A stretch of 64,000 bases of DNA from contig JAMNXV010000171.1 in the NCBI GenBank assembly GCA_023623185.1, forward strand, positions 1-64,000. The letters are read 5' to 3'. Source of the DNA: Bacillota bacterium. GTDB taxonomy: Bacteria > Bacillota > Sulfobacillia > Symbiobacteriales > Symbiobacteriaceae. The notes under the pieces are model-generated. The model saw only the letters and a program-made list of their open reading frames with translations, made no database searches and was not told the origin of the DNA. A program made the position numbers and the translations under genes. Position 1 is the stretch's first letter. The number at the start of each line of letters is the position of its first letter. This document shows, piece by piece, positions 14,072 to 53,995 of the stretch.

Positions 14072-14110
14072 CCGGGAGGAGATGCACGGTGCGTTTCCTC
14101 CCGGCTTTTC
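14072..14110 (+). terminator. Intrinsic terminator after citrate synthase
   Basis: CCGGGAGGA...TCCTCCCGG then CTTTTCTT. Confidence 0.75.
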
Positions 14111-34592: not shown

Positions 34593-34722
34593 ACGGCTGT
34601 ATGGTGACCTGCGTCACCTCTGTTGGAACGAGGATCGGGTAAAATTACCGGGGATCCACCTTCGCAGGGGTGGAAGGAAGTCAGGTCACACCCGACACAC
34701 TATCGGCAAGGAGGACGAGTTT

Positions 34723-35073
34723 ATGCGTATTGCCATTCCGCTGGCTGACGGAAACGTCGCGCCGCACGTGGGCCACTGCAAGAGCTACCTCATCGCAGAC
34801 GTGGAGGATGGAAAGGTCGTCCGCACGGAAGAGGTGGCGAATCCGGGTCACGGCCCCGGCGGTCCGCCGCCCGTCTTTCTCGCCAACCAGGGCGTGAAGA
34901 TGGTTCTGGCCTGGGGCATACCCCAGCACGCCCGCCAGCTGTTGCAGCAGCACGGCGTGGAGTTCATCGCCGGCTGCACGGGTGAGGCCAGTCAGGTTCT
35001 GCAGGACTACCTGGCGGGCACCCTGAAGCTGACGGATGAAGGGCTGGAGGGCGACGGCAGCTGCTGTCATTGA
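34723..35073 (+). CDS. NifB/NifX-family (dinitrogenase Fe-Mo cofactor biosynthesis-like) protein
   Basis: MRIAIPLADGNVAPHVGHCKSYLIADVEDGKVV...FLANQGVKMVLAWGIPQHARQLLQQHGVEFIAGCTGEA. Confidence 0.85.
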   Translation: MRIAIPLADGNVAPHVGHCKSYLIADVEDGKVVRTEEVANPGHGPGGPPPVFLANQGVKMVLAWGIPQHARQLLQQHGVEFIAGCTGEASQVLQDYLAGTLKLTDEGLEGDGSCCH

Positions 35074-35087
35074 TCGTTCTGGCAGGA

Positions 35088-35158
35088 GATACCTCCTCGG
35101 GGGTCGAAGGGCAGACCTGTAACACAAGGTCGAGCCCGCAGAGCCCCGAGGAGGTATC
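35088..35158 (+). promoter_or_regulatory. Long inverted repeat sequestering a Shine-Dalgarno; candidate cis-regulatory RNA
   Basis: GATACCTCCTCGGGG (35088-35102) is the exact reverse complement of CCCCGAGGAGGTATC (35144-35158); nested GGGC/GCCC and GACCT/AGGTC inside. Confidence 0.7.
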
Positions 35159-35161
35159 CTG

Positions 35162-35554
35162 TTGAACAAGGCGCAGATGTATTACGAGTTCTTGAAGGAA
35201 GAGGGTTACGTACCCCGCTACGACGCCGACGGTGACATTGTGTTCAAGGTCGAGGGAATGTCATATGTGCTCTTCCCCTCCGAAGATGACGACGAGTACT
35301 TCCGGCTGAGTCTGCCTAACTTCTGGAAGATCGAGAGCGATGAGGAGAGGCAGCGGGCGCTGGTCGCTGCCTGCCGGGTGAACGCCGAGATCAAGGTGGT
35401 GAAGGTTTACCCGGTGGCCGATAATGTCTGGGCCTCGGTGGAGATGCTTTTCGATCCCCCTGATGCGTTCAAGCCGGTGTTCAGCCGTGCGCTGCGGGTG
35501 ATTCGGGCGGGAGTCGAGCACTTCGCCAGCATCATGCGCACGCCGGTGCAGTGA
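35162..35554 (+). CDS. YbjN-like small protein (130 aa)
   Basis: TTG start 6 nt after GGAGGT; KAQMYYEFLKEEGYVPRYDADGDIVFKVEGMSYVLFPSEDDDEYFRLSLPNFW. Confidence 0.75.
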   Translation: MNKAQMYYEFLKEEGYVPRYDADGDIVFKVEGMSYVLFPSEDDDEYFRLSLPNFWKIESDEERQRALVAACRVNAEIKVVKVYPVADNVWASVEMLFDPPDAFKPVFSRALRVIRAGVEHFASIMRTPVQ

Positions 35555-35705: not shown

Positions 35706-36154
35706 ACCTGGGGGGATGCCCCGGGTCCAAGGCGTTGGTAACAATGTGCACTTTCGTGAAGTCCTTGCGGCAGAGGGGGTGCAGCGGTCGCGCACTCGGA
35801 AATGCTTGCGATGCGGGGACTTGAGGGAAGTGCACATTCTTTCCAGTGGCGCCGGTGGTGTTGGGGCAGCACCGGTGGGCGTGGGTGGATGGGCAGGCGA
35901 CGACGATGGGGACGCGTCGATGGGTGGGGGTGCAGGGCTGGCCATGACCCTGGGGGATGCCCCGTGGCCCAGGCGTTGGTAACAATGTGCACTTTCGTGA
36001 AGTCCTTGCGGCAGAGGGGGTGCAGCGGTCGCGCGCTCGGAAATGCTTGCGGTGCGGGGAGTTGAGGAAAATGCACATTCTTTCCAGTGGCGCCGGTGGT
36101 GTTGGGGCAGCACCGGTGGGCGTGGGTGGATGGGCAGGCGACGACGATGGGGAC
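35706..36154. repeat. Two direct copies of a ~210-bp element at 241-bp spacing, each with a ~100-bp imperfect palindrome
   Basis: ggcgttggtaacaatgtgcactttcgtgaagtccttgcggcagagggggtgcagcggtcgcgc begins at 35731 and 35972; both copies end gggcaggcgacgacgatgggga. Confidence 0.9.
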
Positions 36155-53840: not shown

Positions 53841-53887
53841 GGAGTGGAGGTTGCTATACTGTCCCCAAACAATTCAATACCCGCTCG

Positions 53888-53995
53888 ATTCATCGAGAGT
53901 GGCGGAGGGACTGGCCCCATGATGCCACGGCAACCGCTCCGGTCTGGAGAACGGTGCCAAGTCCAGCGGACGTCAGGTCCGAGAGATGAAGCGTG
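53888..53995 (+). ncRNA. SAM-I (S-box) riboswitch aptamer
   Basis: attcatcGAGAGtggcgGAGGGActGGCCCcATGAtgCCacGGCAACCgctccggtctggagaacGGTGCcAAgTCCagcggacgtcaggtccgagAGATGAa; upstream of metF. Confidence 0.95.

Follow-up and report, generated by a model that had tools for sequence, protein, structure and literature searches.

A sigma-H-type promoter in the left arm of a hairpin over the Shine-Dalgarno sequence of a YbjN-like gene: a probable lock on read-through messages

We found that a long hairpin over the Shine-Dalgarno sequence (SD) of a YbjN-like gene, a small gene of chaperone-like type, has its left arm wholly within a sigma-H-type promoter motif, a feature that is not in the earlier note in which the hairpin was described. 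The reading that we regard as probable is that the promoter and the hairpin together form a lock on this gene, in which, most likely, just the messages started by sigma-H escape the hairpin and are translated, and the messages that read through from the NifX-like gene upstream are silent. Computation gave the stem and the promoter motif with its conservation, and it showed how accessible the SD is in two transcript forms. Throughout, the window is the whole 64 kb stretch of DNA that was analysed, and the features of the locus are collected in Table 1.

The hairpin and its neighborhood in the window

The earlier note had described a 15-bp stem burying the SD of the YbjN-like gene, a nested stem-loop inside it, and an SD lying 6 nt before the TTG start, and each of these was found at its place. 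The main stem is perfect over its 15 bp, and the start codon lies at 35162. The region 35070-35190 folds with -63.8 kcal/mol (z = -7.2), and 0 of 200 shuffled sequences folded equally well. In the minimum free energy structure, the helix extends past the 15-bp stem, taking in GGCAGGA (35081-35087) and reaching as far as the TTG start codon. Of 63,885 positions in the window, only 7 have a perfect inverted partner of 15 nt located no more than 60 nt upstream, and the hairpin, taken as an imperfect repeat, is number five among the inverted repeats listed for the window. Opening the SD requires 19.2 kcal/mol, which is the highest value among the 67 candidates in the window with an SD and a start codon (mean 5.0, standard deviation 3.3).

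The start at 14089, which is the second-most occluded of these 67 candidates, was rejected because its open reading frame is spurious and overlies a hairpin with a T-rich run behind it. This strong hairpin, at 14072-14106, pairs CTCCGGGAGGAG with a CTTTCCTCCCGG-type sequence; it is probably a terminator that only resembles a masked SD.

Table 1. Features of the YbjN-like locus, in window coordinates
Feature	Position	Strand	Basis or remark
Palindrome GGTGACCTGCGTCACC, putative CRP/FNR-like operator of the NifX-like gene	34603..34618	+	GTGA-N6-TCAC in three species
TAAAAT, likely -10 box of the NifX-like gene	34640..34645	+	TAA(A/G)AT in three species
NifX-like gene, 116 aa	34723..35073	+	PF02579, E 7e-18; also the neighbor in G001 and G002
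Sigma-H-type promoter GGCAGGAGAT-N12-GTCGAAG	35081..35109	+	Orthologous motif in four genomes; overlaps the left arm
Main stem, left arm, anti-SD ACCTCCT	35088..35102	+	GATACCTCCTCGGGG
Nested stem, left arm	35109..35118	+	Fold
Predicted transcription start, between the arms	35117..35121	+	Placed ~10 nt past the -10 element
Nested stem, right arm	35127..35137	+	Fold
Main stem, right arm, contains SD AGGAGGT (35149-35155)	35144..35158	+	CCCCGAGGAGGTATC
YbjN/TY-Chap1-like gene, TTG start, 130 aa	35162..35554	+	PF22551, 27.2 bits (cut-off 27)

A search of the whole genome for other copies of the hairpin returned only its own locus and its own reverse arm; thus, the hairpin is not a dispersed repeat. 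In the earlier note, the hairpin had not been recognised as a member of a known family. An Rfam scan of the whole window gave no match to it. The sole match of that scan is a SAM (S-box) riboswitch at 53887-53992 (93 bits).

Upstream, the NifX-like gene ends with the TGA at 35071-35073, as the earlier note had it. In all three species with the gene pair (G000, the species of the window, and its congeners G001 and G002), a GTGA-N6-TCAC palindrome is kept, centered at about -41 from the TAA(A/G)AT box. We read this layout as a class II promoter activated by a CRP/FNR-type protein, the family being assigned from the layout. The stretch between the NifX-like and the YbjN-like genes shows no terminator-like site. 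Since such a site was not found and a conserved promoter-like region precedes the NifX-like gene, it is plausible that a growth-phase message from the NifX-like gene reaches the YbjN-like gene. Downstream, the intergenic region at 35736-36140 holds two tandem units, near-identical and about 245 nt long, both of which contain an inverted repeat (AATGTGCACTTTCGTGAAGTCC ... GAAGTGCACATTCTT). In G002, several copies of similar GTGCACTTT-type units lie next to the orthologous gene (locus L005).

A conserved promoter motif and a variable mask

The comparison covered 154 genomes of the class and GTDB contigs, in which relatives are few: just G001 and G002 have the NifX-like/YbjN-like pair, and G057, from another family, has a YbjN-like homologue with a different upstream gene. 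The YbjN-like orthologues start at the equivalent place, but with GTG. In the alignment of the four homologues, the conserved upstream blocks besides the SD are GGCAGGA and GAAG, which are separated by 18 bases in the three congeners and by 17 in G057. Although G057 lacks a NifX-like gene, the motif is present there. Among the distant homologues other than that of G057, no comparable upstream motif was found except a weak AGGA-type match in L049, whose start call is uncertain.

The published sigma-H consensus is RNAGGAWWW / RNNGAATWW (PMC8510167). The conserved element fits this consensus in its AGGA core and its spacing, but its -10 element reads GAAG and not GAAT. In three genomes, GGCAGGA-N17..20-GAAT occurs 21, 18 and 14 times, compared to 1, 1 and 2 times for the reversed control, and the GAAG form is weakly enriched genome-wide (15, 18 and 10 occurrences versus 6, 10 and 10 for the control). 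SigH itself is encoded in G000, G001, G002 and G057 (TIGR02859 above its cut-off). The genes spoIIAA and spoVG are classic sigma-H targets in B. subtilis, and in these genomes they carry AGGA-N18-GAAn with equal spacing and a variable last base, GAAG and GAAC included; spoIIAA of G002 carries the exact form GGCAGGA-N18-GAAG. A YbjN-like gene is not known to be a sigma-H target. Because the GAAG form is weakly enriched and a GCAGGA-N17-GAAG match is also present within the NifX-like coding region, the case for the promoter rests on conservation at the orthologous place, including in G057. Taken together, the prediction that GGCAGGA-N17/18-GAAG before the YbjN-like gene is a sigma-H-type promoter is well supported, and we infer that sigma-H is the factor that uses it.

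The GAAT form, GGCAGGA-N17/18-GAAT, precedes orthologous genes of the genus at L010, L018, L022, L023 and L027. The genes with this form upstream include a ParA/Soj-like and an acyl-CoA-dehydrogenase-like gene, which are candidate members of the sigma-H regulon.

As a general rule, some 10 nt separate the -10 element from the transcription start downstream of it, which would place the start of the YbjN-like message near 35119. Since this predicted start falls between the two arms, the local transcript would be without the left arm. In G000 at 37 °C, the opening energy of the SD is 3.8 kcal/mol in this short form, compared to 19.2 kcal/mol in the long form; at 60 °C, the values are 2.9 and 14.3 kcal/mol, respectively. 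The difference is smaller in G002 (9.8 kcal/mol in the long form and 5.0 in the short form at 37 °C), and G001 is without masking (2.3 in the long form and 3.4 in the short form). Masking is also missing in G057.

The promoter boxes were then held fixed, the spacer alone was shuffled 2000 times, and the pairing between the promoter and the SD region was scored. The native spacer of G000 beats 2000 of the 2000 shuffles, with p = 0.02 for G002, 0.20 for G001 and 0.74 for G057. In the alignment of the three congeners, compensatory pairs were found at 0 of the 15 positions of the main stem, most departures being broken pairs; the main stem is absent in G001, whose YbjN-like protein is the most similar among the relatives. 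The nested stem shows three two-sided changes in the same three sequences, located in a poorly aligned part. Therefore, the opening energies, the shuffles and the stem alignment together indicate that the promoter is conserved and that the masking is a species-level addition, which is predicted to be very strong in G000, weaker in G002 and absent in G001. With neither G001 nor G057 showing it, masking can hardly count as a function conserved at this locus. Masking as a general trait of the sigma-H-type genes of the genus was also considered and rejected, as a survey shows that most of them are unmasked; thus, the arrangement at the YbjN-like gene is local.

Possible explanations for the masked SD

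In the proposed lock, the sigma-H-type promoter of the YbjN-like gene would sit behind the NifX-like gene, and its DNA, once transcribed as part of the NifX-like read-through message, would become the left arm of the hairpin. This arm would pair with the SD and the start codon and would block translation on the read-through message. A polymerase carrying sigma-H would start at about 35119, past the left arm, and its message, lacking the left arms of both the main and the nested stem, would leave the SD free to be translated. Production of the YbjN-like protein would thus fall mainly in periods of sigma-H activity, at the transition to the stationary phase or in sporulation, and growth-phase read-through would not be its source. 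In this scheme, we infer not only the use of sigma-H but also where transcription starts, that read-through takes place and what the arrangement is for.

The main rival to the lock is a sigma-H-type promoter acting alone, where the complementarity between the spacer and the SD in G000 is a by-product or drift with no regulatory role, because little read-through reaches the gene. This would suit a promoter that is present in all four genomes while the stem is strong in one and partial in one, but a perfect 15-bp stem exactly on the SD is unlikely to come from drift, as 0 of the 2000 spacer shuffles reach it, and a second species, G002, also exceeds most of its shuffles; we consider this reading unlikely. 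It is quite improbable that the hairpin is an element of RNA processing or stability, such as an RNase III site or a 3′ protection of the NifX-like mRNA. A long stable intergenic stem could serve in this way, but it is absent in G001 though the gene pair is shared, and such a role leaves unexplained why the SD forms one arm and the promoter the other.

The earlier note had proposed that translation is shut unless the stem is opened, and that the opener could be a riboswitch ligand, heat or the ribosomes that finish the NifX-like gene. The first part holds for any transcript that contains the left arm, and the openers found no support. A cis-acting sensor (a riboswitch, an RNA thermometer or a protein-bound leader), whose stem would yield to a ligand, to heat or to a protein, would agree with a very stable fold that buries the SD and with the two-sided changes in the nested stem. 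We nevertheless regard it as very unlikely, for the Rfam scan gave no match, the main stem shows no compensatory pair and is lost in G001, no conserved loop or aptamer-like sequence was seen in the alignment of the upstream regions, opening the SD takes 14.3 kcal/mol even at 60 °C, and the promoter already explains the left arm. Preservation of the stem by compensatory changes, on which the earlier note had staked such a reading, is not seen in the main stem of the three sequences compared, so that a ligand- or temperature-sensing RNA is largely refuted. Translational coupling, in which ribosomes completing the NifX-like gene would melt the stem and go on to initiate at the YbjN-like gene, would draw on two adjacent, co-oriented genes that stay together in three species, but it is hardly probable at all: 88 nt separate the NifX-like stop from the start codon and about 15 nt separate it from the perfect stem that follows, so that a ribosome terminating there could reach no further than the base of the stem, and the motif is found in G057 without a NifX-like gene. 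Ordinary coupling is thus disfavored because the stop is too far from the start. Taken together, the earlier interpretation of the hairpin is partly supported, and the predicted sigma-H-type start between the arms suggests that the SD is freed by a switch of promoter.

A hairpin that covers an SD is therefore not necessarily a sensor: with a promoter in its left arm, the relevant message may never contain the hairpin. More tentatively, the choice of sigma factor could set translation through the form of the transcript, with the growth-phase operon mRNA carrying a sigma-H gene in silent form and the promoter sequence acting as its anti-SD; in the genus, this might be a recent, species-specific tightening of a conserved member of the sigma-H regulon. 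The YbjN-like gene would join the predicted sigma-H regulon of Symbiobacterium-type bacteria.

Comparison with known systems

The element resembles sigma-H (Spo0H) promoters in its layout (-35 AGGAGAT, N12, -10 GTCGAAG) and has the spacing of spoIIAA and spoVG in the genus; unlike the consensus, the last base of its -10 element is G and not T. The logic of the lock is established for gene e and I-TevI of phage T4, and in the leaders of T4 gene e, soc, 49 and I-TevI the SD is sequestered in the long early mRNA (PMC3014915, PMC2988022). The YbjN-like locus is alike in that the SD is predicted to be sequestered in a long transcript. It differs in that the T4 cases involve a phage late promoter and gp55 and were tested experimentally, whereas here the arrangement lies on a bacterial chromosome, the promoter is of the sigma-H type and the case is computed.

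In B. subtilis sigG, a hairpin of more than 20 bp was proposed to block translation of the spoIIG read-through mRNA, and it is unable to form in the mRNA made from the sigG promoter (PMC5942855). The present locus would share with sigG an endospore-former type of bacterium, a developmental sigma promoter between the upstream gene and the target, and a long hairpin directed against read-through mRNA that does not form in the mRNA of the local promoter. In sigG, the promoter is a sigma-F/sigma-G promoter and the target is a sigma factor gene, while here the promoter is of the sigma-H type and the target is a YbjN-like gene. We think it fairly probable that the YbjN-like locus is a new place for a principle already known from T4 and B. 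subtilis sigG, and it would offer a simple, testable case of control by transcript form beyond phages and B. subtilis sigG.
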